Assembly: GCA_011390955.1 (NCBI GenBank)
Contig: JAABRM010000007.1
Location: 62,001 to 126,000, forward strand
DNA length: 64,000 nt
Direction: 5' to 3'
Source: Oscillatoriales cyanobacterium
GTDB lineage: Bacteria > Cyanobacteriota > Cyanobacteriia > Cyanobacteriales > Laspinemataceae
Below, in pieces: positions 11,041-55,135 of the stretch (position 1 is its first letter; each line of letters begins with the position of its first letter). A program made the position numbers and the translations under genes. The notes under the pieces were generated by a model. The model was given only the letters and a program-made list of their open reading frames with translations, had not been told where the DNA came from and did not search any database.

Positions 11041-11519
11041 GGCAATTCTCCAAAAAAGAGCCCAGTGGCGATCGCTACTACGATGGCGATGATAAAACTA
11101 ACGGCATTTCGCCAGAGAGTTAATTGGGTGCCAAGATATCTTTTTTCCAAAGGAAAAGTGGCCACCCCGACCATCATTAACGTTGTGGAAAATGCCGAAA
11201 GAACCATGTACAGCGCCCCGATTTGCAATAAAATGCCGCACAGGGGAAAAGCAACGAATCCGGGCATGATGGTCACGGAACCTAAGCCAATCGCCCCGAT
11301 GGTGGCGCTCCATTTGTTATCACCCGTTAATACCTGTACCAGGAGTTGTTCTGGAATCATATAGAGGGCGATCGAAAGTAACATCAGCATCCCGATGAAT
11401 TCGGGAGCGATCTTTAAGAATCGGCGTAGAGCTATTTTCAGCGCAGATTTAGTTTTGCCAGGACTGGCTAATAGGGAAAAACCCAGAATTAATCCCGTAA
11501 TCATATAGAGAATTAGCAT
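11037..11519 (-). CDS. Permease half, ArsP_1/DUF318-like (first gene)
   Basis: 160 residues, four to five hydrophobic helices (MLILYMITGLILGFSLLA, FIGMLMLLSIALYMIP, ATIGAIGLGSVTIMPGFVAF, LCGILLQIGALYMVLSAF, AVSFIIAIVVAIATGLFFG). The helices and the GSVTIMPGFVAFPL segment resemble the N-terminal half of YraQ/ArsP permeases. First gene of a two-gene unit with the 179-residue gene, which it overlaps by 4 nt. Paired half-permeases of this size occur in anaerobic bacteria and archaea (recalled, not checked). Confidence 0.65.
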   Translation of the reverse strand: MLILYMITGLILGFSLLASPGKTKSALKIALRRFLKIAPEFIGMLMLLSIALYMIPEQLLVQVLTGDNKWSATIGAIGLGSVTIMPGFVAFPLCGILLQIGALYMVLSAFSTTLMMVGVATFPLEKRYLGTQLTLWRNAVSFIIAIVVAIATGLFFGELP

Positions 11520-11615
11520 TGTTTGATGATTGTTTAGAAGCTCATGTTTAAACAGACAAATTAGCTATTTTGATGGCTAAATTAGCAGCAAATATCGCCC
11601 AAATTTCAGCCGATA

Positions 11616-11657
11616 AATAAAGCAGCGATTTAAGTTATATTAAATCGCTGCTTTATT
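11616..11657. terminator. Strong hairpin between the permease pair and the atypical psbA
   Basis: Perfect 18-bp arms (AATAAAGCAGCGATTTAA and its complement) around a 6-nt loop, ending in AT-rich sequence on both sides. It lies 32 nt after the stop of the minus-strand psbA-like gene, so it should terminate that gene and insulate the permease pair downstream. Confidence 0.85.
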
Positions 11658-11689
11658 TAATCGATTATTTAAGCGGAAACGAACTAGAA

Positions 11690-12784
11690 TTAGCTAATAG
11701 ACGGAGCCTGATTGAGGCTAACGGGAATGCCTTCACCGCCAGCAATCAAGTTCGGGAAATGGTGGGTATTCGGCGCGTGCATTGCCTGAATTCCCAGGGT
11801 AGCCCGATTGAGCAAATCTGCATCGGTGGAAATGACTTTTCCGCTGGCATCGATAATCGAATGGTTGAAGTTAAAGCCATTTAAATTAAATGCCATTACC
11901 CCAATTCCCAGGGTGGCAAACCAAATGCCAATGGTGGGAAAAGCGCCCATGAGAAAATGGACAGAACGGCTGTTGCGGATGCCTACTCCGGGAATTAATA
12001 ACCGGCCTAAAAAGCCCGAATGTCCCGCTAAAAGATTGTAAGTTCCTTCTTGTTGGCCAAATTTGTAGCCCACATTGGTAGATTCTAACTCGCTGGTTTC
12101 ACGAATTAAACTGCTGGTGACTAATGACCCATGTAAGGCACTTAACAAAGCCCCGCCAAAAACTCCAGCAACTCCGATCATGTGTAGCGGGTGCATTAAC
12201 ACATTATGTTGTGCTTGGAGGGACATCATAAAATAGAAAGTCCCGGAAATTCCCAAGGGCATTCCTTCAGAAAAGCTGCCTTGTCCGATGGGATAAATTA
12301 GCAGTACGGCAGTCGCGGCGGATGCGGGGGCGGAAAAAGCAACCGCAATCCACGGGCGCATTCCCAGGCGATAGCTTAATTCCCATAACCGGCCCATGTA
12401 AGACCAAATGGCGATCGCAAAATGCAGAATTATTAGTTGATAAGGGCCACCATTGTAAAGCCATTCTTCAATGGAACTGGCTGACCAAATGGGATAGAAA
12501 TGTAAACCGATCGCTGCTGAGGTGGGGACGACGGCGGCGGTAATCATATTTTGATTACCTAAAATTGAGCCAAAAATTGGTTCGCGGATCCCTTCCATAT
12601 CCACCGCAGGGGCGGCAATAAAGGCGATCGCAAATGTCGTCGCTGCGACCAGGAATGTAGGAATCATCAAGACACCAAACCACCCAATATAAATGCGGTT
12701 TTCCGTGCTAACGATCCAGTCTACAAACATCGGCCACAAGTCACCGATATCGAGTTCGCGTTTGGGTTGTAAAACGGTACTCAT
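11690..12784 (-). CDS. psbA: Atypical (rogue/sentinel-class) photosystem II D1 protein
   Basis: 364 residues, clearly D1 but divergent. Using standard D1 numbering (this protein is offset by +3), TyrZ 161, His190, His198 and His215 are kept. Water-oxidation residues are lost: D61E, N87A, D170E, N181Y, E189Q, E333A and D342L, while H332, H337 and A344 remain. Position 130 is Leu. On the acceptor side the QB-site S264 and F265 read Gly and Ile, with a one-residue insertion after His252. Loss of Mn ligands defines the rogue (group 2, sentinel) D1 class, reported to give a photosystem II that cannot evolve oxygen. It is not ChlF, which has a QD pair at 130/131. Location beside sulfide genes suggests expression under sulfidic or anoxic conditions (inference). 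Confidence 0.93.
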
Positions 12785-42628: not shown

Positions 42629-43711
42629 ATGACTACTACTCTGCAACAACGCGAAAGCGCTTCTCTGTGGCAGCGCTTCTGCTCCTGGGTCACAAGCACC
42701 GACAACCGCATTTATGTGGGCTGGTTCGGCGTCCTGATGATCCCCACCCTGCTGACCGCAACTATCTGCTACATCATTGCTTTCGTCGCTGCTCCTCCAG
42801 TGGACATCGACGGGATCCGCGAACCTGTGGCTGGTTCCTTACTGTTAGGCAACAACATCATCTCTGGTGCGGTTGTTCCTTCCAGCAATGCGATCGGTCT
42901 GCACTTCTACCCCATTTGGGAAGCGGCTTCTCTCGATGAGTGGCTGTACAATGGCGGCCCATATCAGTTAGTGATTTTCCACTTCCTGATCGGCATCTTC
43001 TGCTACATGGGTCGTGAGTGGGAATTGTCCTACCGCTTAGGTATGCGTCCTTGGATCTGCGTCGCTTACAGCGCTCCCGTAGCTGCTGCTAGTGCCGTGT
43101 TCCTGATCTACCCCATCGGTCAAGGTTCTTTCTCCGATGGTATGCCTCTGGGTATCTCTGGAACCTTCAACTTTATGTTGGTGTTCCAAGCTGAGCACAA
43201 TATCCTGATGCACCCCTTCCACATGTTGGGTGTAGCCGGTGTGTTCGGTGGCGCTTTGTTCTCCGCCATGCACGGTTCTTTGGTGACTTCTTCTTTGGTG
43301 CGTGAAACCACCGAAGTGGAAAGCCAAAACTATGGTTACAAGTTTGGTCAAGAGGAAGAAACCTACAACATCGTTGCCGCTCACGGTTACTTTGGTCGTC
43401 TGATCTTCCAATACGCTTCCTTCAACAACAGCCGCTCTCTGCACTTCTTCTTGGGTGCATGGCCGGTGATTGGGATCTGGTTCACCGCTCTGGGCGTGTC
43501 CACTATGGCCTTCAACCTGAACGGTTTCAACTTCAACCAATCTATTGTTGACTCTCAAGGTCGCACCATCAACACCTGGGCCGACGTGATCAACCGCGCT
43601 AACCTGGGTATGGAAGTAATGCACGAGCGTAATGCTCACAACTTCCCCTTGGATTTGGCTGCTGGTGAAGCTGCTCCTGTGGCTTTGAGTGCGCCTCAAA
43701 TCAACGGCTAA
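42629..43711 (+). CDS. psbA: Photosystem II D1 protein, standard type, copy 1
   Basis: 360 residues, canonical oxygen-evolving D1 of the thylakoid photosystem II core. All Mn4Ca ligands are present: Asp170, Glu189, His332, Glu333, His337, Asp342 and Ala344 before the cleaved C-terminal extension. TyrZ161, His190 and QB-site Ser264 are intact. Glu130 marks the high-light-type isoform. Nearly identical to copy 2 at 45584; the protein differs only by Ala/Thr in the last residues (LSAPQING here). Terminator at 43741. Confidence 0.98.
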
Positions 43712-45583: not shown

Positions 45584-46666
45584 ATGACTACTACTCTGCA
45601 ACAACGCGAAAGCGCTTCTCTGTGGCAGCGCTTCTGCTCCTGGGTCACAAGCACCGACAACCGCATTTATGTGGGCTGGTTCGGCGTCCTGATGATCCCC
45701 ACCCTGCTGACCGCAACTATCTGCTACATCATTGCTTTCGTCGCTGCTCCTCCAGTGGACATCGACGGGATCCGCGAACCTGTGGCTGGTTCCTTACTGT
45801 TAGGCAACAACATCATCTCTGGTGCGGTTGTTCCTTCCAGCAATGCGATCGGTCTGCACTTCTACCCCATTTGGGAAGCGGCTTCTCTCGATGAGTGGCT
45901 GTACAATGGCGGCCCATATCAGTTAGTGATTTTCCACTTCCTGATCGGCATCTTCTGCTACATGGGTCGTGAGTGGGAATTGTCCTACCGCTTAGGTATG
46001 CGTCCTTGGATCTGCGTCGCTTACAGCGCTCCCGTAGCTGCTGCTAGTGCCGTGTTCCTGATCTACCCCATCGGTCAAGGTTCTTTCTCCGATGGTATGC
46101 CTCTGGGTATCTCTGGAACCTTCAACTTTATGTTGGTGTTCCAAGCTGAGCACAATATCCTGATGCACCCCTTCCACATGTTGGGTGTAGCCGGTGTGTT
46201 CGGTGGCGCTTTGTTCTCCGCCATGCACGGTTCTTTGGTGACTTCTTCTTTGGTGCGTGAAACCACCGAAGTGGAAAGCCAAAACTATGGTTACAAGTTT
46301 GGTCAAGAGGAAGAAACCTACAACATCGTTGCCGCTCACGGTTACTTTGGTCGTCTGATCTTCCAATACGCTTCCTTCAACAACAGCCGCTCTCTGCACT
46401 TCTTCTTGGGTGCATGGCCGGTGATTGGGATTTGGTTCACCGCTCTGGGCGTGTCCACTATGGCCTTCAACCTGAACGGTTTCAACTTCAACCAATCTAT
46501 CGTTGACTCTCAAGGTCGCACCATCAACACCTGGGCCGACGTGATCAACCGCGCTAACTTGGGTATGGAAGTCATGCACGAGCGCAACGCTCACAACTTC
46601 CCCTTAGATTTGGCGGCTGGCGAAGCTGCTCCTGTGGCTTTGAGTACACCTCAAATCAACGGCTAA
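45584..46666 (+). CDS. psbA: Photosystem II D1 protein, standard type, copy 2
   Basis: 360 residues, identical to copy 1 except for LSTPQING at the C-terminus. The DNA is identical for most of the gene; differences cluster in the last 250 nt, and the 3' flanks differ, which points to ongoing gene conversion of the 5' part. All water-oxidation ligands and Glu130 are present. Multiple high-light psbA copies support fast D1 turnover. Confidence 0.98.
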
Positions 46667-46687
46667 TTAAGAGCTAAAACTGAATAA

Positions 46688-46720
46688 AAAAAACGCTCTC
46701 CTGAAAAGGGGGGCGTTTTT
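46688..46720 (+). terminator. psbA copy 2 terminator
   Basis: AAAAACGCTCTCC, TGAAAA loop, GGGGGGCGTTTTTT; 22 nt after the stop. The same hairpin sequence follows the psbA fragment at 49437-49471. Confidence 0.88.
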
Positions 46721-46748
46721 TGTTGTTTAGATATTGTGAAGGGCTATT

Positions 46749-46819
46749 TTTACCACAAAGACACGAAGGACACAAAGGAAATCAAGAATCATCTTTGTGT
46801 TCTTTGTGTCTTTGTGGTT
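46749..46819. repeat. Long imperfect hairpin with ACACAAAG units
   Basis: TTACCACAAAGACACGAAGG on the left pairs with CTTTGTGTCTTTGTGGTTA on the right, with nested GGACACAAAG/CTTTGTGTTC arms. It is a roughly 70-nt palindromic repeat unit between psbA copy 2 and the HicB genes. Confidence 0.7.
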
Positions 46820-46917
46820 ATTACAATTTCAGGCGATCGTTATAGCTGGTCAAGATGGCAGTGATGCTAAAATTTATTTGCAGAACTGAAAAAAATTGCA
46901 GAAGAGGAGGCAGGAGA

Positions 46918-47142
46918 ATGAACTACACGGTGATTATTCAATGGTCACAAGAAGATGAATGTTTTGTGGTATTTCTCCCTGAATTTGAAGATGTTATGCA
47001 ACCTGTCACTCATGGCGAGTCTTATGAAGCGGCGATAACTATCAATCAAGAAGTCATAGACTTATTGATTGATAGTTATCGCGAAGAAGGAAAACCTTTA
47101 CCAGGGATGAAGAATTTAGACCAGTTAATCAAAGCTGCATAA
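46918..47142 (+). CDS. HicB-like antitoxin, orphan
   Basis: 74 residues. The ATG at 46918 is preferred because of the strong GAGGAGGCAGGAG before it. YTVIIQWSQEDECFVVFLPEF is the HicB partial-RNase-H-like sheet, then GESYEAAITINQEVIDLLID. It lies 18 bp before a second hicB and the hicA toxin gene, so three genes form one unit with two HicB-type proteins. Confidence 0.82.
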   Translation: MNYTVIIQWSQEDECFVVFLPEFEDVMQPVTHGESYEAAITINQEVIDLLIDSYREEGKPLPGMKNLDQLIKAA

Positions 47143-47160
47143 GTAAAAGGAGAAAACAGC

Positions 47161-47388
47161 ATGAAACGAGTTCAGCAATTTACTGCGATTATTGAGCGTG
47201 AAGGGGATGGTTATGTATCATTATGTCCAGAATTGGATATTGCCAGTCAAGGGGATTCTGTTGAAGACGCAAAAAATAATTTGATTGAAGCATTAGAGTT
47301 GTTTTTTGAAGTGGCCGATCCTTCGGAAATAGAGAATCGCTTACATACAGAAGTTTTTATAACTAGATTGGAGGTTGCTGTTGCGTAA
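47161..47388 (+). CDS. hicB: HicB antitoxin
   Basis: 75 residues. FTAIIEREGDGYVSLCPELDIASQGDSVEDAKNNL (read as two adjoining motifs) is the full HicB core; the GDSVEDAxxNLxEAL helix is intact. No separate DNA-binding domain. It overlaps the toxin gene by 14 nt, and is partner of HicA at 47375. Confidence 0.9.
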   Translation: MKRVQQFTAIIEREGDGYVSLCPELDIASQGDSVEDAKNNLIEALELFFEVADPSEIENRLHTEVFITRLEVAVA

Positions 47389-47602
47389 TATTCGAGTTTT
47401 GTCCGGGCGAGAAGTCTGTAAAATTTTGGCAGCACATGACTTTGTAGAAGTACGACAACGGGGTAGTCATATCACCATGCAACTTAAAATTGAAGCAACC
47501 ACTATCACCCTGCCTGTCCCCAACCATACAGAAGTAAAGATGACGTGGCAATCCATTATTCGCCAATCAGGATTGCCACGTCATCTTTTTGAGGAAACCT
47601 GA
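47375..47602 (+). CDS. hicA: HicA mRNA interferase toxin
   Basis: 75 residues with a TTG start (47375 or 47381; no ATG is available). LSGREVCKILAAHDFVEVRQ, RGSHITMQL with the catalytic His and VPNHTEVKMTWQSIIRQSGL match HicA, a double-stranded-RNA-binding-like toxin that cleaves mRNA. Gene order here is hicB then hicA, the less common order outside cyanobacteria. Confidence 0.9.
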   Translation: MLLRNIRVLSGREVCKILAAHDFVEVRQRGSHITMQLKIEATTITLPVPNHTEVKMTWQSIIRQSGLPRHLFEET

Positions 47603-47747
47603 TGAAAGCTGGTGTCTGCTAAAAAATCTATTTTACGGTGGGATAGTTGGATTTTAAATGGATGTACTGTTTAGGCACTTAGATGGGGATATTATCCCTT
47701 GAGGGCAGGCGGGAGGGACGTCTGCCCTACGTTTATACCAATCGCAC

Positions 47748-48965
47748 TTAACCGAGGAAAATAGTACCGTCGTTGGCAGGTTGAGCGAAGACGGCGCTCT
47801 CAACCTGACTCAGGGGCGCTGTAATTCCTTCCACCACAGCCACTAAGTCCCGGGTAGAATCGTTTCTGTAGATAGCTAAATTGCTGCCGGTTACTTCTTG
47901 CGTGAAGTCATTAATACTGCCAGCCACCTCGATGACATCGACTCCCTGCTCGAAGTTGCGGATCTGAGCGTAGTCGCTGTCTCCTTGACCCAAATACAGC
48001 TGTACCGCATTAGGCGTTGAAGGAGTGATGTAAGCGGCAGTAGAGAAATTGTCAGGGCCAGTCGCACCGATGAGAGTGTCAATTTCTCCTGTGCCAGTTC
48101 CGATGATTGCCGTATCGTAAGGATCGGAACTGACAACTTCATAGGGAGTCCCGTACAAATATCTTGCCTGACCAAAGCCGGTAATCGTGTCATTCCCCGT
48201 GGTGCCAACAAATGTAGCAGTGCGGTTTTCATATTGGCCATAACGGACAAAGTGTTCGTAGCCATACTTGAATTTGCCCTGCTCCACTGCCGCCTTGACA
48301 TCTGGATAGGATTCTAGGTAATCCGTCTCGGCGAAATTATTCACAGCGCCCAGGTAGAAAGTACCGCTCCCTGCCGCCTCATCAACAAAGGCTCGCTTGA
48401 ACTGAGTCAGGGGCGCTGTCACCCCTTCCAGCACTGCCACCAAGTCTCCGGAGCTTTTTTGATAAATGGATAGATTTCCATCTGCTACCTCTTGGGTGTA
48501 GTCCGCTGGCGTCCCCGCTAGCTCAAGGCTATCTTCGGCAAATCCAAAATTTTTAATCAGAGCGTAGTCGCTGTTCCCCTGACCTACATAAAACTGTACG
48601 GCAGTGGGAATTGACGCTGATGTATAAGCTGCCAGCGCATAATTATCTGGACCTTCGGCACCGACAAGGGTGTCTATTTCGCCCGTCCCCGTCCCGATTA
48701 CCGCGTAATCGTAAGGGTCGGCACTGACGAATTCGTAAGAAGTTGGGTAAAAAAATCGAGCTTGGCCAAACCCACGAATTAGGTCATTGCCAGCCGTGCC
48801 GCTGAAAGTGGGAATGCGATTCTCAAATTGGCCAAATTGTATCAAGTGATCGAGTCCCGACTCAAAAAGTCCTGCATCTACTGCTTCCTTCACATCAGGA
48901 TTGAAGGCCAAATAATCTGCTTCATCGAAGAACGGATAAATTTCGCTATAGGAAGGTTCGGCCAT
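47748..48965 (-). CDS. Two-repeat secreted-type protein (hemolysin-type calcium-binding-like)
   Basis: 405 residues made of two homologous halves of about 200 residues. Each half starts with a DYLAFNPDVKEAVDAGLF/DYLESYPDVKAAVEQGKF helix pair, then LIQFGQFENR/FVRYGQYENR, a GTAGNDLI/GTTGNDTI Ca-loop-like motif, GTGTGEIDTLxGA and a final TFYLG/TIFLG. The PDV...G...HF..YGQ.E.R motif is common in cyanobacterial type I-secreted proteins. No classical signal peptide, consistent with type I secretion; export genes are not nearby. Confidence 0.7.
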   Translation of the reverse strand: MAEPSYSEIYPFFDEADYLAFNPDVKEAVDAGLFESGLDHLIQFGQFENRIPTFSGTAGNDLIRGFGQARFFYPTSYEFVSADPYDYAVIGTGTGEIDTLVGAEGPDNYALAAYTSASIPTAVQFYVGQGNSDYALIKNFGFAEDSLELAGTPADYTQEVADGNLSIYQKSSGDLVAVLEGVTAPLTQFKRAFVDEAAGSGTFYLGAVNNFAETDYLESYPDVKAAVEQGKFKYGYEHFVRYGQYENRTATFVGTTGNDTITGFGQARYLYGTPYEVVSSDPYDTAIIGTGTGEIDTLIGATGPDNFSTAAYITPSTPNAVQLYLGQGDSDYAQIRNFEQGVDVIEVAGSINDFTQEVTGSNLAIYRNDSTRDLVAVVEGITAPLSQVESAVFAQPANDGTIFLG

Positions 48966-49179
48966 GTTTTAGATATCCTTTACTGATTTGTTAACTGTTA
49001 CTCAACACCGATCAGCTTACCGGCAACAGAAGCCTTCAAGAATGCCCGATGACTATATATAATAAAGTTATATATATATATATAATTATAATTATTCCTT
49101 ATAACAAGCGATATTGGGAACGGACATTAATGGCATGGGGCAGCGGGCGATAAGGTTTGGATGCGATCGGGTTCCATTG

Positions 49180-49409
49180 TCCACGCTCTGGGTGTTTCTA
49201 CGATGGCCTTCAACCTGAACGGTTTCAACTTTAACCAGTCGATCGTTGATTCTCAAGGTCGCGTTATCAATACCTGGGCTGACGCGATCGACCGCGCTAA
49301 CCTGGGTATGGAAGTAATGCACGAGCGCAACGCTCACAACTTCCCCTTAGATTTGGCAGCCGGTGAGTCCGCTCCTGTGGCTTTGAGTACACCTCAAATC
49401 AACGGCTAA
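49180..49409 (+). pseudogene. psbA 3' fragment (last ~76 codons)
   Basis: From about 49180 the frame matches standard D1 from near residue 285 to the end: [20 protein letters not shown] through [19 protein letters not shown] and PQING. Upstream sequence to 49160 is unrelated, so no start or promoter is present. The 3' flank is a mosaic: the first 32 nt after the stop match copy 1, and the terminator matches copy 2. The coding part is little decayed, so this is a recent or conversion-maintained fragment. Confidence 0.92.
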
Positions 49410-49436
49410 TTCTTAGCTAATTTAACTAAATAAATA

Positions 49437-49471
49437 AAAAAACGCTCTCCTGAAAAGGGGGGCGTTTTTTT
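49437..49471 (+). terminator. psbA-type terminator after the fragment
   Basis: AAAAAAACGCTCTCC, TGAAAA loop, GGGGGGCGTTTTTTT, as after psbA copy 2. Confidence 0.85.
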
Positions 49472-49591
49472 GCGTTTCTTGTTATGCTGCGGTAAACTAG
49501 CTGATAAAAGTTCCAAAAGCCTTGCCGAATATTTCCGGCTAGAGCAACATCTTTGAGCGAATTAAAACATCGCCGAGAGGAAGCCTAAAAA

Positions 49592-49856
49592 GTGGTCGCG
49601 AAAAAGCGGAAAATTCTGGATAAGGTTCTGGCAGGTTCAAAAAATATCAAGTTTAGTGAAATGGTGACGCTGATTGAAGCTTTCGGGTTTAGCTTGGAAA
49701 GAATCAGTGGTAGTCATCACATTTTTACTCATCCCCAAGTTACGGAAATTGTTAACATTCAAACAGGACAAAGGCGAGGTGACACCTTATCAAGTGCGTC
49801 AATTTTTATCGATAATTGAAGAGTACAATCTGATGATGGAGCAGGATGAATTATGA
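49592..49856 (+). pseudogene. hicA toxin gene with a +1 frameshift
   Basis: The first frame (GTG 49592) gives KILDKVLAGSKNIKFSEM, LIEAFGFSLERISGSHHIF with the catalytic GSHH, then TEIVNIQ. The expected continuation (QDKGEVTPYQVRQFLSIIEE, then YNLMMEQDEL) is in the next frame and stops at 49856. One extra base near 49762 restores the frame if removed. The intact hicB partner begins at 49853, overlapping the original stop by 4 nt. Confidence 0.8.
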
Positions 49857-50077
49857 AAGACTATCACATCAATATTTTCTACAGTGAGGAAGATGAAGGT
49901 TATATTGCTGATATTCCTGACTTAAAATACTGCTCTGCATTTGGTGAAACCCCCGAAACAGCTTTGCGCGAGGTACAAATTGCTAAAGAAGCATGGTTGT
50001 CAGCGGCTTCGGCTGCGGGTAAAGCAATTCCTCAACCTAAATATCGACCGATTATTTATCAGCTACAACAGAGGTAG
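49853..50077 (+). CDS. hicB: HicB antitoxin beside the broken hicA
   Basis: 74 residues. YHINIFYSEEDEGYIADIPD, then YCSAFGETPETALREVQIAKEAWL, the HicB core with the usual P-x-L-x-C/GxT-P-E-T-A-L helix. It keeps an intact frame while the toxin gene is frameshifted, as expected when the antitoxin is retained after toxin loss. Confidence 0.88.
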   Translation: MKDYHINIFYSEEDEGYIADIPDLKYCSAFGETPETALREVQIAKEAWLSAASAAGKAIPQPKYRPIIYQLQQR

Positions 50078-50140
50078 CGAAGACTACGCAACTACTAGCT
50101 AGATGTGTTACGGTTTTCATTTTCTGGAGTTTGACTGGGA

Positions 50141-51499
50141 CTAAATGTACTTTTTAAAGACAGGATTTAGCAGAAAGCGCGATCGCCCTCCCGCGATCAC
50201 TTTTTCGGCTAATCCTCGTCTGACTAAAGATTGGATAGCGTCCCATAATTCCGATTGGGAAATTTCGCTTAATCCAGGTTGTCGTGAAATCTCTACCGCT
50301 TCATCTTCTGAAAATCTGGATATGACTTTTTTTTCTAACTCCGATAAACGGTCTAATTGAGATTCTATAATTGGGGATAAGTCGCCGATAAATATCTCCT
50401 CCTCCTTAAGCCCCCCCTTTCCAAGGGGGGGTTGGGGGGGATTCCCTAAAAATAGGGAAACGCTGCCGTCAAATAGTTCCACGATGGTTGAGGCGATAAT
50501 ATTTAACCAGGTGGGATGACCTTGATAGAGGTTGATTAATTCTGGCCATTTTTGTGAGTCCGTTAATCCGTGTTCTTTCAAAATTTCCTCAGCATCCGCT
50601 GATAATCCTTTCAGGTTTAAGGTGCGGGTGGATTGTTTTTCTGCTGCTAAGGTAGCGAGTTCTCTGGGTTTTTCCCAACTCAGGAGAATGACACAACTTT
50701 GATGATGGTTTTTGGCGATTTGTTGCCAAAATTGGCCATAGTCTTTATGTTCGGCTAAGTATTGACCGGCTAATTCACCGCTTTGAAACAGATTTTGCAG
50801 GTCATCCAGGATGACTAAACAGCGCGAGTTACGAAAGTAATCAATTATTGTGGGTAATTGGGGCTGTTGGGACTGGGCAAAAAATTGTTGCAGTTGGTTT
50901 TTTAGGGAGGAAAGGGTGGGAGTCTCTGTGAGACTTTTCCAAATAATATAGTCAAATTCAGGCTTGATTTGTTCGATGAGTTGCCTGGTTAATACGCTTT
51001 TGCCAATGCCACTTAATCCATAGATGGTAATTAAGCGGATCTGGTCTTGTAATATCCACTGTTTGAGGGTATTTAGTTCGGTGGTGCGGTTGTAAAAGTC
51101 CGTGAGGTCTGGGGCGTCGATTAAGTCGATAATGGGTGAAGAATTTTGGGTGGGGGAAGAGTTAGGAGAAGAGGGCGATCGCTGTTGTTCACTACAAATA
51201 TTGATATTACCTATTTGTAAGCAATTAGCATGATTTTCAGATATTTCTGCTTGTTCTAACACAGAAAACACATTCGACTTTTTAACATCTTCTCCAACCA
51301 CATCAGAAAGAAGTTTCCATAACTTCCACGCTTCTTTTTTCACATGATCGTAGCTTCTCTCATTATTTTCAGCAATTTCATAATAATCCTGATGTTGCCA
51401 AATGCCCTCTAAGATAGATTTTTGTAGCGATTCAAGATGTTTTCCGGTTTTAGCGAATACCTGTTCATCAGTCCAGTTTAAAACTTCTTGAATATCCAT
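50141..51499 (-). CDS. Small STAND NTPase: N-terminal HTH plus NB-ARC (copy 2)
   Basis: 452 residues from the ATG at 51497-51499 (MDIQEVLNWTDEQVF), chosen because it aligns with MKNIEEVLEW of copy 1. An in-frame upstream ATG at 51553 would run through the decamer array. The HTH region (1-85) is related to copy 1 but clearly divergent. The NB-ARC core from PIIDLIDAPDLTDFYNRTTE onward is nearly identical, with Walker A GLSGIGKS and Walker B CLVILDD. It also carries an in-frame dispersed repeat (NPPQPPLGKGG, DNA 50411-50442) and a shorter Ser/Pro linker. It has no sensor repeats. Divergent from the peptide gene at 51740. Confidence 0.87.
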   Translation of the reverse strand: MDIQEVLNWTDEQVFAKTGKHLESLQKSILEGIWQHQDYYEIAENNERSYDHVKKEAWKLWKLLSDVVGEDVKKSNVFSVLEQAEISENHANCLQIGNINICSEQQRSPSSPNSSPTQNSSPIIDLIDAPDLTDFYNRTTELNTLKQWILQDQIRLITIYGLSGIGKSVLTRQLIEQIKPEFDYIIWKSLTETPTLSSLKNQLQQFFAQSQQPQLPTIIDYFRNSRCLVILDDLQNLFQSGELAGQYLAEHKDYGQFWQQIAKNHHQSCVILLSWEKPRELATLAAEKQSTRTLNLKGLSADAEEILKEHGLTDSQKWPELINLYQGHPTWLNIIASTIVELFDGSVSLFLGNPPQPPLGKGGLKEEEIFIGDLSPIIESQLDRLSELEKKVISRFSEDEAVEISRQPGLSEISQSELWDAIQSLVRRGLAEKVIAGGRSRFLLNPVFKKYI

Positions 51500-51527
51500 A
51501 GGACAAAGTGGGGGTATGCAACGATAA

Positions 51528-51630
51528 TCCCACTTTATCACACTTTTTCCCACTTTTTCTCAAAAATCCCACTTTTTCCCACAAAATTGGTGATGTAAAT
51601 AATTGTAAAATGCCACTTTATCCCACTTTT
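51528..51630. promoter_or_regulatory. Phased decamer direct repeats TCCCACTTTT in the divergent promoter region
   Basis: Seven units of a 10-nt motif start at 51528 (TCCCACTTTA), 51538 (TCACACTTTT), 51548 (TCCCACTTTT), 51567 (TCCCACTTTT), 51577 (TCCCACAAAA), 51611 (TGCCACTTTA) and 51621 (TCCCACTTTT). Steps are 10, 10, 19, 10, 34 and 10 nt, so most units share one helical face. Same design as 2419-2477 but with C instead of T at the fourth base and T-rich ends. A likely operator for the STAND HTH or another factor controlling both directions. Confidence 0.65.
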
Positions 51631-51739
51631 ATGACTATACAATCATCCAGTTTTATACTAAAATGATTAACCATACAACGAAAGAGTTTCTAGCAAACTA
51701 GAGCGTACTTTCGACCTTTCATCAAGTAGGTTTACTACT

Positions 51740-51910
51740 ATGTTACAAAGCAAAATAGCAGCGGCTCGAGTCACAGAAAAGCAAAACAACACTGCAATTG
51801 ATGAATCTAAGGGCATTGCTCGGCAAGATAACCACAGTGAATGGTATCCGATTGAGGTAGGAACAGAACGAGCAAATCTTATGGCTTGTCCCAAAGGTGC
51901 GCTTTTTTAA
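51740..51910 (+). CDS. Candidate RiPP precursor peptide (56 residues)
   Basis: ATG at 51740 to TAA at 51908-51910. Leader-like charged N-terminus (MLQSKIAAARVTEKQNNTAI), then a core-like C-terminus with HSEWYPIEVG, one Cys and the end LMACPKGALF. The reading frame lies between the decamer array and a radical SAM/SPASM gene 128 nt downstream, on the same strand; a hairpin at 51990 sits between them. Size, single Cys, aromatic-rich end and order (precursor then maturase) fit a RiPP precursor. The first six residues are shared with the 147-residue protein at 2541, which has the same position in the paralogous locus. No family match is recalled. Confidence 0.6.
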   Translation: MLQSKIAAARVTEKQNNTAIDESKGIARQDNHSEWYPIEVGTERANLMACPKGALF

Positions 51911-51989
51911 GCAACGATTAAGATTGTACGATCATCTAAAAAGGTGAGAAACATATAAAAGCAAATTACTATGCAGTAGATCCAATAGA

Positions 51990-52012
51990 GGACGCGATCA
52001 TATGTCGCGTCC
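51990..52012 (+). terminator. Hairpin between peptide and radical SAM genes (attenuator-like)
   Basis: GGACGCGA (51990-51997), 7-nt loop, TCGCGTCC (52005-52012), then TTACTTT, 26 nt before the radical SAM start. A leaky terminator here would give more precursor mRNA than maturase mRNA, as seen in many RiPP operons (inference). Confidence 0.55.
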
Positions 52013-52038
52013 GTTACTTTCTAAGAGAGGAATTATAT

Positions 52039-53166
52039 ATGTTAGTCCATCGGCATATTGGCAATGTAGATTTCGCAATCGATCCATCCCAGCCTGTTGG
52101 GATTTGTTTAAAAACAAATGAAAATGATCGATTAAAATTTTCAAATATTAAAGCTTTTATTGATTGGATTATAGCCAGAGCGAGAATGCCTGCTACTCTT
52201 CAATGGGAGTTGCTTTCAGTCTGCAACTTTAAATGTCGCTTTTGTTATATGGTGGGACATACCGAACCTACGATATTTTCGTCGGAACGGGCTTTTAAAC
52301 TGATTGATGAATTTGTGGATGCGGGGGTTGTTCAAGTCATTTTAACTGGCGGAGAGTGTCTGATCCATCCAAATTTTACAGCCATTTATGAAAAACTCCG
52401 CTTGGCAGGTATTATTGTATCTGTTTTCACTAATTTAGAAAAGTTAACCGCCGAGCATATCGAAATATTTAAGCGTTATCCACCTTATGTGATTGAGGTG
52501 AGCATTTACGGTCACGATGAAGATAGTTACGAAAGAGTCACTGGACGGCGAGCTTTTAACCAGGTACTCCACAACATAGAGATTCTTCGCGACTATGGCT
52601 TTAATCTTCTTTGTAAAACTCCAATAACTACTCTGACCCATAATTCTATTGATTGGATATATAATTGGTGTCAAAATCGTAACCTGGAATATTTGGCAGA
52701 TCCAAGTATTAAGGATGGTCTTGACGGTGATGATTTATCAGACTTTTCCCTAAAATTTGAAGAATATTACGCTGCCGAAAAACTTAGGCTTCACTTAGCG
52801 AAAAACCTAATTAACTCTACGAATTTAGAAAATAGAGATCCGTCTCGTGTTTTTAGCTGCGGAGTTGGTAAAGTAGGTGCTTACATTAACTACGATGCTA
52901 CTCTTTCTCCCTGTTCAAGCATTCGGAATCAGCGCTTCAATCTGATGGAACTTTCCTTCGCTGATGCTTGGCAACAGTTAGTTAATAATATACAAGCACA
53001 GGAAAATTTAGTTATCAGTGGATGTAATCCGAATTGTTCTGCTAGATCAATATGTAAGATGTGTCCCGCAGTAGCTTTCCGTGATGAAGAAGGAAACTAT
53101 AGAGTTAATCCAGCTTATTGTGAGCGACAAATTGCCCTGGCAAAGGTTCTTGCTATTAGTTCTTAG
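52039..53166 (+). CDS. Radical SAM/SPASM peptide maturase
   Basis: 375 residues, start preceded by GAGAGG. The radical SAM cluster motif is CNFKCRFC (Cys62/66/69) with TGGE at 103-106 for SAM binding. The C-terminal SPASM domain has seven Cys: 274, 292, 329, 333, 339, 342 and 361, in the order C-x17-C, CxxxC, CxxxxxC, CxxC, C, enough for two auxiliary [4Fe-4S] clusters. SPASM enzymes modify ribosomal peptides (thioether, C-C or C-O crosslinks, epimerisation). Residues 1-50 precede the barrel and may bind the leader, though no clear RRE fold is seen. Partner is the 56-residue gene upstream. The chemistry cannot be predicted from sequence alone. Confidence 0.9.
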   Translation: MLVHRHIGNVDFAIDPSQPVGICLKTNENDRLKFSNIKAFIDWIIARARMPATLQWELLSVCNFKCRFCYMVGHTEPTIFSSERAFKLIDEFVDAGVVQVILTGGECLIHPNFTAIYEKLRLAGIIVSVFTNLEKLTAEHIEIFKRYPPYVIEVSIYGHDEDSYERVTGRRAFNQVLHNIEILRDYGFNLLCKTPITTLTHNSIDWIYNWCQNRNLEYLADPSIKDGLDGDDLSDFSLKFEEYYAAEKLRLHLAKNLINSTNLENRDPSRVFSCGVGKVGAYINYDATLSPCSSIRNQRFNLMELSFADAWQQLVNNIQAQENLVISGCNPNCSARSICKMCPAVAFRDEEGNYRVNPAYCERQIALAKVLAISS

Positions 53167-53526
53167 TTCTGCTATTGGGAATAGGTACTTTCCCGATCGC
53201 GATCGCCTTCTTTATTCAATTCTCAATGCGGGGGCGATCGCCCAAGCAGAGCAGACAAGAAACCCGGTTTCTTCAAGAAACCGGGTTTCTTTGTTTCTGG
53301 ACAATTTTGAGGCAGAAGTGGGAGTAATGCCCCCAGAGGAGTTTCTCTCGTTTCAGGTTTCCCGGTTCCAGATTTTAGGGAAATTTCCTGGTTTTAGCTG
53401 GAACTGTTACGCTCGATTTGAATCACCTAAATAGCTTGAGCGTGAGTAATTTCTGCCATAGTCAAGCCACCCGTGACAAACTTGAATAAATATGATTAAA
53501 TAGATGAGGAGCAATTTTTCAAAAAA
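53167..53526. other. Intergenic region with palindrome copy 2
   Basis: 360 bp. HIP1-rich at the left, then the GAAACCCGGTTTCTT palindrome with its shared tail at 53259-53310. The open frame crossing this region is built on the repeat and on out-of-frame radical SAM codons and is not a gene. Confidence 0.65.
53259..53289. repeat. Perfect palindrome GAAACCCGGTTTCTT, copy 2
   Basis: Identical to 3020-3050 in both 15-bp arms, with the same tail TTTCTGGACAATTTT. It lies 92 nt after the radical SAM stop and could end that transcript. Confidence 0.8.
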
Positions 53527-53769
53527 ATGCCAACAGTCTTAAGATTTGAAGCCTATCGTTTTTATTTTTACAGCCATGAACCCAACGAACCACCCCATAT
53601 TCACATTGATAGAGATAATCTCTCAGCAAAATTCTGGTTATCTCCGATATCTTTAGCCAAAAATATCGGCTTTAATGCTAAAGAGCTAAGAAAAATAGAA
53701 TCACTGGTCGAAGCTAATCAACAAAAATTTTTGGAGGCATGGTATGACTACTTTGGCAATTCAAACTGA
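53527..53769 (+). CDS. DUF4160 protein (toxin-antitoxin-like pair, first gene)
   Basis: 80 residues. MPTVLRFEAYRFYFYSHEPN, then EPPHIHIDRD and AKFWLSPISLAKNIGF match DUF4160, a small family nearly always followed by DUF2442. It overlaps the DUF2442 gene by 26 nt. The pair is regarded as toxin-antitoxin-like; which member is toxic is not established to my knowledge. Confidence 0.88.
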   Translation: MPTVLRFEAYRFYFYSHEPNEPPHIHIDRDNLSAKFWLSPISLAKNIGFNAKELRKIESLVEANQQKFLEAWYDYFGNSN

Positions 53770-54013
53770 TATTAGAGTAAAAAATGTTCTGATATATGAA
53801 GATGCTTTTAGTGTTGAATTAATGGATGGACGCACTCTCACCGTTCCTTTAGCTTGGTTTCCTCGACTATTAAAAGCTACACCCGAACAGTTAGAAAAAT
53901 GGGTGATTTGTGGCGGCGGTTATGGGATTCATTGGGAAGAAATTGATGAGGATCTTAGTACCGAAGGATTATTACGCGGTGCTCCCGCGCCTCGGAATCA
54001 AACGCGATTATAA
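53744..54013 (+). CDS. DUF2442 protein (toxin-antitoxin-like pair, second gene)
   Basis: 89 residues. VLIYEDAFSVELMDGRTLTV, then PLAWFPRLLKATPEQLEKW and YGIHWEEIDEDLSTEGLL are the DUF2442 core, related to nuclease-inhibitor-like proteins. Coupled to DUF4160. Confidence 0.88.
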   Translation: MTTLAIQTDIRVKNVLIYEDAFSVELMDGRTLTVPLAWFPRLLKATPEQLEKWVICGGGYGIHWEEIDEDLSTEGLLRGAPAPRNQTRL

Positions 54014-54299: not shown

Positions 54300-54695
54300 T
54301 TACGGGATGAAAAGGCGACTTACGCCCATATAGACATCAATATCAATCACAATTTCCACCAGACGAACTGCACAACGCTGCCGATATTCTGAGTCATTCA
54401 ACAAGCGGTCAGCATCACTAATGGTAATCACGGGAAGTGATGTAGACGTAATTTCCTCACGCATCACTTGTTCCAGAGAGTTTTCGCCTTTCATACTCCG
54501 ATTCGCTGTCAATAAAATCATCTGATTTGATTGAGCCAACTGCCAAACAACCCGATCGTCACTATTGATTGACAGGCCGATTTCCTCAAAAGTGATAAAT
54601 CGAATAAACACCCAATCTAGCCAGCCACTACTCACAATACTGCCCGACAGAAGGAGCGCGTGTCCTCTTAAATTACGATCGACTAAAAAATTCAT
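54300..54695 (-). CDS. PIN-like (DUF5615-type) toxin candidate
   Basis: 131 residues. NFLVDRNLRGHALLLSGSI at the start, EIGLSINSDDRVVWQLAQ and MILLTANRSMKGENSLEQVM follow the Asp-rich PIN/Mut7-C-like pattern of DUF5615 proteins. It overlaps the DUF433 gene by 4 nt. DUF5615 and DUF433 form a recognised toxin-antitoxin-like pair in cyanobacteria. Confidence 0.78.
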   Translation of the reverse strand: MNFLVDRNLRGHALLLSGSIVSSGWLDWVFIRFITFEEIGLSINSDDRVVWQLAQSNQMILLTANRSMKGENSLEQVMREEITSTSLPVITISDADRLLNDSEYRQRCAVRLVEIVIDIDVYMGVSRLFIP

Positions 54696-55066
54696 AGCTG
54701 AGACTGAAACTTTGCTTTGGCTGCTTGAAGTTTTGCCCGAATCTCTTCTTGGCCTGGTTTCGGTGGCATAGCGGCAATTTTAGCAATTAAATCCCGATTT
54801 TTTTCTTCATAATACAGCCGCAGTTCCTCCGCTTCCCGAAGCACTTGATGATACTCAGCTTCAACCGTAGGGCGATTGGCCTCAATATAAGCTAAAGCCG
54901 CGTTAATTTGTGCTTCTGTCAGGTCAAATAATCCCCTGATAAATTTAGGCGGATATTGAGCGGTTACATAGTCCATAATGTCGTAGATCGTAATCCGTGT
55001 ACCGGCAATGGTTAACCCTCGTTCTGTACGGATAATCCCTGTTTGTTCCTTGGATATGTTTGTCAT
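54692..55066 (-). CDS. DUF433 antitoxin candidate with helical extension
   Basis: 124 residues from the ATG at 55064-55066; a TTG start five codons upstream is less likely. IIRTERGLTIAGTRITIYDI, then MDYVTAQYPPKFIRGLFDLT and INAALAYIEANR are DUF433, an HTH protein. The C-terminal 45 residues are a charged helix (REAEELRLYYEEKNRDLIAK) that may hold the toxin. Confidence 0.85.
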   Translation of the reverse strand: MTNISKEQTGIIRTERGLTIAGTRITIYDIMDYVTAQYPPKFIRGLFDLTEAQINAALAYIEANRPTVEAEYHQVLREAEELRLYYEEKNRDLIAKIAAMPPKPGQEEIRAKLQAAKAKFQSQL

Positions 55067-55135
55067 AATTTTTCCCAACAATCTGTTGGCTGAAAGTCAT
55101 TTATCTTTTAATACCATATATTTTAATCCAAAAAA

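Follow-up and report, generated by a model that had tools for sequence, protein, structure and literature searches.

A conserved short ORF beside a radical-SAM/SPASM gene and opposite an HTH-STAND gene in an Oscillatoriales cyanobacterium: a candidate RiPP precursor-maturase pair

The sporulation killing factor peptide SkfA carries a Cys-Met bond, and in streptide formation one precursor is modified by one SPASM enzyme, SuiB, as we propose for the gene pair described here. SkfB (TIGR04403; PDB 6efn), the maturase of the former sactipeptide system, is likewise a radical-SAM/SPASM-type enzyme encoded next to a short precursor; it is the best PDB sequence match of our enzyme (1.1e-10) and the third Foldseek match of its model, for which SuiB (PDB 5v1s) is the best match (3.8e-12). 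Our peptide resembles SkfA in having a Cys with a Met nearby but differs in that the Met precedes the Cys. Against the SkfB family the enzyme scores 47 bits with a cut-off of 300, and since the aligned part begins approx. 57 residues later in SkfB, the N-terminal region of SkfB has no counterpart in our enzyme. Identity to SuiB in the structural alignment is 14%, with a low-confidence N-terminus in the enzyme model, and nothing points to a Lys-Trp bond here. Of the NCBIfam matches shown, the one to the thio(seleno)oxazole maturase SbtM (TIGR04082; 516 model positions, cut-off 350 bits) aligns over the greatest length (query 10-346, 66.4 bits); the homologous enzyme of Planktothrix sp. PCC 11201 (hereafter Planktothrix) matches SbtM with 53.2 bits over residues 27-205 only.

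For the regulatory side of the locus, one of the nearest described counterparts is MalT, whose operators, the MalT boxes, are direct repeats like those reported below. The MalT-type STAND transcription factors (PMC4381067) combine a DNA-binding domain with a STAND NTPase, and the STAND protein encoded opposite the pair has such an NTPase together with a putative DNA-binding domain. Our protein differs from MalT in its N-terminal, sigma-r4-like HTH and in having NB-ARC instead of the MalT NOD; moreover, many paralogues of it occur in one genome, and the repeat word is different for each. In cyanobacteria, proteins with a sigma70 domain have been reported to carry NB-ARC as an accessory domain, in passages of PMC11119718 where repeat arrays and divergent neighbours do not come up; excerpts of PMC7159879 and PMC5930380 treat other STAND-linked conflict systems and heptameric repeats (SARP-LAL), respectively. 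No literature on the precursor-enzyme pair, or on HTH-STAND repeat arrays with divergent neighbours, was recognised in a search that lay mostly outside subscription papers, which is weak evidence of absence.

The window, i.e., the whole stretch of 64,000 nucleotides analysed here, contains the following features of the locus:

50141-51499, reverse strand: HTH (sigma-70 r4-like) plus NB-ARC STAND gene, presumed local regulator (NB-ARC 5.4e-10; HTH weak)
51526-51630, no strand assigned: (A)AAGTGGGA repeats at 10-bp spacing, presumed operator, in the intergenic region common to the STAND gene and the precursor gene
51636-51664, forward strand: possible precursor promoter TATACA - 17 - TAAAAT (consensus match only; TAAAAT kept in Planktothrix)
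51679-51713, forward strand: 5' leader hairpin before the precursor gene, folding in both genomes with unexceptional energy (z -1.7 and -1.0)
51740-51910, forward strand: gene of the putative 56-aa precursor (frame from ATG to TAA, homologue, codon-level selection)
51824-51907, forward strand: its conserved C-terminal half, residues 29-56 (16 nt and 5 aa changes in the alignment)
51914-52012, forward strand: structured precursor-enzyme spacer (hairpins 51914-51927, 51932-51947 and 51990-52012)
52039-53166, forward strand: radical-SAM/SPASM enzyme, 375 aa, presumed maturase (nearest solved folds led by RiPP maturases)
52222-52245, forward strand: CX3CX2C [4Fe-4S]/SAM motif, C62-C66-C69, invariant in a 10-sequence alignment
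52858-53121, forward strand: SPASM region with C274, C292, C329, C333, C339, C342 and C361, from alignments
53257-53291, forward strand: strong terminator-like hairpin 3' of the enzyme gene

The short gene and the RNA around it

The first-pass annotation had proposed an overlooked 56-residue gene directly before a maturase gene, and its reading of the frame was borne out in full: the ATG lies at 51740, the TAA at 51910, and the translation, MLQSKIAAARVTEKQNNTAIDESKGIARQDNHSEWYPIEVGTERANLMACPKGALF, contains the motif HSEWYPIEVG, ends in LMACPKGALF and has a single Cys, C50 (codon 51887-51889). The antisense frame that it had pointed out is present as well (51667-51894, reverse strand) and is broken by 4 stops in the homologous DNA of Planktothrix, where each of the other five frames of the region has 2-5 stops. 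A search upstream of homologous radical-SAM genes, the check it had suggested, recovered the ORF intact, under selection and directly before the enzyme gene in Planktothrix, the only other genome found with an intact copy of that enzyme gene. This homologue has 57 aa (68% identity, E 1.4e-17) and the same start, stop and position; it is separated by 120 bp (128 bp here) from the gene of an enzyme 84% identical to ours. Neither a frameshift nor an in-frame stop, which had been named as grounds for discarding the gene, was seen in the ORF. With an intact and selected homologue before a homologous radical-SAM gene, the annotation was right both on the gene and on its role as candidate precursor, and we conclude that ORF 51740-51910 is a real gene.

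Selection was assessed over 57 codons including the stop, with one in-frame 3-nt indel set aside. The two sequences differ by 39 nt and 18 aa, as compared to a mean of 25 aa expected under simulated random substitution (whole ORF P = 0.003). In the same simulation, the C-terminal 28 codons plus stop gave P = 0.0002, as compared to P = 0.33 for the N-terminal 28 codons, so that constraint on the N-terminal leader half was not detected with this one sequence pair; this charged half is the less conserved one, and the initial MLQSKIA is identical in both genomes. NG86 dN/dS values were 0.208/0.576 for the precursor, 0.139/0.542 for its C-terminal half and 0.081/0.272 for the enzyme. Because there are two intact copies only, the evidence for selection rests on one sequence pair. 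As the constraint falls on the C-terminal half (consensus DNHSEWYxIEVGTERANxMxCPKxALF) in both the simulation and dN/dS, this half is presumably the modified or recognised part, and residues 29-56 probably represent a recognition segment plus core. The precursor has no family match in Pfam or NCBIfam, and no Nif11-type leader was found by either.

In the precursor-enzyme spacer, 0 of 200 shuffles folded as well as the natural sequence in either genome; its stem GGACGCGA/TCGCGTCC is identical in Planktothrix, with a different loop. A hairpin at 51990 had been predicted to mark the end of a short transcript. The hairpin itself is there; the transcript end was not supported, as the weak T-rich tail is absent from Planktothrix, and in the lack of a T-tract there we rejected an intrinsic terminator. 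With the T-rich tail confined to the window, the element more likely serves stability, processing or attenuation than termination. Rfam gave sub-threshold matches only.

The adjacent enzyme and the distribution of the pair

The annotation had taken the neighbouring gene for a maturase gene, and Pfam Radical_SAM (4.5e-22), the cysteines and the fold agree that it encodes a true SPASM-type radical-SAM enzyme. The radical-SAM motif begins at residue 62. Six of the seven SPASM cysteines are invariant in the 10-sequence alignment and C333 is so in another alignment; the Pfam SPASM score is below the cut-off (10.9 vs 21.5). The best 25 of 63 NCBIfam matches all fall far below their cut-offs (top 70 of 500 bits), including, in bits vs cut-off, AlbA (50.2/850), StsB (50.1/625), PapB (44.2/340), TIGR04103 (47.3/725) and SkfB as given above. 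Judged by its sequence, the enzyme appears to fit no curated maturase family among the matches shown, and for this reason the type of bond it would form is not predictable and would be new information. A leader-recognition (RRE/PqqD) domain is frequent in radical-SAM RiPP systems, though not in all of them; no canonical one was present among the best 25 of 63 NCBIfam and all 4 Pfam matches, and none was recognised beside the enzyme gene.

The AlphaFold2 model (13 sequences) is of moderate confidence (pLDDT 63.7); its barrel part is well predicted and residues 1-48, 223-278 and 322-375 are poor, values under 50 being found at the N-terminus and across most of SPASM. Below SuiB and SkfB, the top 30 Foldseek matches in the PDB include PqqE, EpeE and the sactipeptide thioether enzyme 5why, which we take to be CteB, along with MoaA, DesII, BlsE, an anaerobic sulfatase-maturating enzyme and a viperin-like enzyme. 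By this model, the enzyme ranks with peptide maturases, though another substrate stays possible. PADLOC matches to viperin were ascribed to the common radical-SAM core and set aside.

Among 291 genomes sampled from the order, the precursor is present in two, i.e., this genome and Planktothrix, and the enzyme is matched at 1e-30 or better in three, i.e., the same two and a genome designated G056, whose match is a decayed fragment with 1 stop. Two listed genomes of the same genus (G037 and G060) have neither gene. Our genome has an additional 60-residue scrap of the enzyme on a contig designated C1, and each genome with the pair has one precursor and one intact enzyme. Searches of 61 genomes from the family of Planktothrix sp. 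PCC 11201, 388 of the class and 292 of the phylum revealed no further relative that close (the samples overlap, so that counts are not additive); in the phylum sample the next match falls to 68 bits. Viral contigs yielded nothing more for either gene, nor did phage records (50,697) and plasmid records (72,556) for the precursor, or an initial scan of genome contigs with the enzyme alone; plasmids gave one generic enzyme match (25.6%). Four additional precursor matches (E 0.005-0.1, 388 genomes) were rejected as chance, being short stretches with internal stops in 3 of 4, and neither of the two decayed loci yielded a remnant of the precursor. Overall, these data are best read as a narrowly distributed pair with decayed remnants in two genomes.

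The divergent STAND gene and a model for the locus

NB-ARC is matched in the STAND protein with 39.4 bits (gathering score 23.5). At 452 aa the protein is short, and sensor repeats are not obvious in it. HTH_28 (0.0011) and Sigma70_r4 (1.4e-4) were matched by two out of four paralogue N-termini, both below cut-offs. Across three genomes (this genome, Planktothrix and G056), the N-terminal domain is matched 75 times, with per-genome counts of 31, 26 and 18; all matches were analysed and 72 starts were located, two loci being without a hit and one locus (L120) covering two matches; the HTH domain occurs in 68 of 116 genomes of the class, often within much longer open frames. The longest ORF upstream was divergent for 46 of 50 STAND genes as compared to 22 of 44 decided controls (P = 6e-6; Fisher's exact test). 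The former set comprises 51 matches with E up to 1e-15, one at a contig edge being set aside, and the controls derive from 48 ORFs in four stretches only (2 with no upstream ORF and 2 at an edge); orientation by the longest ORF is a crude rule. Across all 72 located starts, 58 are divergent, 12 co-oriented, 1 at an edge and 1 without an upstream ORF.

The 140 bp upstream of STAND genes showed a lag-10 self-identity of 0.404 +- 0.010 (n = 50) as compared to 0.276 +- 0.006 for controls (n = 54), with peaks also at 20 and 30, and lag 10 ranked first among 35 lags in 31/50 STAND regions vs 1/54 controls. This lag test replaced weaker motif counts, in which 18/71 STAND regions and 2/54 controls exceeded all 20 shuffles. 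The repeat word varies by paralogue (GTGGGA, GTCGGA, GGCGGA, GTAGCA), as do the divergent neighbours, which by eye are SIR2-like, prepilin-like, adenylate-kinase-like and transporter-like genes and genes of small secreted proteins. These data suggest that the STAND gene and its repeats form a dedicated local switch with the RiPP pair as one payload, and this probable switch is the unexpected part of the locus; the first-pass annotation had not picked up the divergent HTH-STAND gene or its repeat array. More tentatively, filamentous cyanobacteria may possess a class of modular switches that has not been described before, in which an HTH-STAND NTPase would bind its own paralogue-specific 10-bp-phased array and control an exchangeable gene on its divergent side, be it pilin-like, adenylate-kinase-like, transporter-like, a gene of a small secreted protein or, here, a RiPP precursor plus maturase. 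An NLR-like STAND gene with paralogue-specific arrays and swapped payloads provides a concrete and easily tested model for the switching of accessory genes in these organisms.

Overall, we consider it likely that the ORF encodes a RiPP precursor, that the adjacent radical-SAM/SPASM enzyme is its maturase and that the pair is STAND-controlled. A short precursor encoded beside a modifying enzyme occurs as a conserved pair in two genomes, and the enzyme has both C62/C66/C69 and the seven SPASM cysteines; the best reading is an orphan, uncharacterised radical-SAM RiPP precursor-maturase pair. We infer that the peptide is the substrate: the enzyme would modify its conserved C-terminal half through radical H-abstraction, with a crosslink or an epimer as the product and Cys50, Trp35, Tyr36, His32 and acceptors around CPK as invariant candidate sites. 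The thioether or aromatic crosslinks suggested in the first-pass annotation are speculative. Precursor and enzyme probably share one transcript, and the structured RNA between them could raise precursor over enzyme output. The divergent HTH-STAND protein probably controls expression by binding the 10-bp-phased repeats between both promoters, and may switch by ATP-driven oligomerisation, as in MalT; leader removal and export would fall to proteins encoded elsewhere. The enzyme would then be an orphan radical-SAM/SPASM protein with a defined substrate candidate. With a switch-like regulator gene facing the pair, the locus points to a possible new peptide natural product under a control system dedicated to it.

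Conservation and structure extend into the flanking spacer, as they would if the frame were open by chance only, within DNA that is conserved but untranslated; we regard this as very improbable given the simulation result for the C-terminal half, the in-frame indel, the kept start and stop and the stops in every other frame in Planktothrix. The small protein could instead be an accessory partner or chaperone of an enzyme acting on another molecule: stronger conservation of the C-terminal half can fit a binding partner, and neither a protease nor an exporter was recognised nearby. PqqD/RRE domains have approx. 90 aa, much longer than these 56 residues with one Cys and no family match, and the nearest folds of the enzyme are led by peptide-modifying enzymes, which makes an accessory role improbable.

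Two further alternatives concern the STAND gene. Instead of being a secreted antibiotic, the modified peptide could act as a signal that the STAND protein reads (autoinduction or self-recognition), a reading favoured by the fact that no exporter was recognised nearby and by the finding that STAND gene, precursor and enzyme form one homology block (50145-53168) in two genomes with different flanks. We consider it rather unlikely, as the STAND protein is short and devoid of obvious sensor repeats and its paralogues face many other payloads, so that binding of this peptide is not a general property of the family. Somewhat less doubtful, yet still unlikely, is that STAND gene and repeats are mere neighbours of the pair, the array serving STAND autoregulation alone. 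In many paralogues the last repeat does run into the STAND gene's own TATAAT-like box; against this, divergent orientation exceeds that of controls and the candidate precursor promoter has a repeat pair immediately 5' of it.

Decayed copies and neighbouring genes

Nucleotide homology with Planktothrix covers the STAND gene, the precursor and the enzyme, and as it stops at the enzyme stop codon, we rejected the toxin-antitoxin-like neighbours DUF4160/DUF2442 (53527-54013) as members of the system. STAND gene and enzyme adjoin in all four loci seen, two of them decayed: the G056 remnant has a piece of each, and in the second copy in our genome (contig C1, locus L010) the STAND gene differs in its N-terminus, and the end of the enzyme is 98% identical. 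A pair that we take to be MNT/HEPN-like flanks both the Planktothrix and the C1 copies, so that an older, larger unit is possible. When the ORFs at 30-64 kb with a length of at least 180 aa were inspected by eye, no peptidase or exporter was recognised.

Genomes differ in the toxin-antitoxin-like pair that comes right after the enzyme gene or what is left of it, i.e., DUF4160/DUF2442, a presumably DUF433-like gene with a partner, or MNT/HEPN-like (window 53527-54013 and 54300-55081; L008 7433-8063; L010 7250-7880; L009 7885-8651), which suggests that this site is an insertion hotspot. The window also contains two psbA-like genes (photosystem II D1; 42629-43711 and 45584-46666) that are almost the same in sequence, and a third psbA-like piece, a C-terminal fragment (49161-49409), all named by eye. 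Window positions 46001-53300 have a collinear partial copy on contig C1 (L010), in which the STAND gene (11056-12459) shares approx. 84% nucleotide identity with window 50141-51499 in the ATPase part; the HTH domains differ (42% aa identity), as if the HTH had been swapped.
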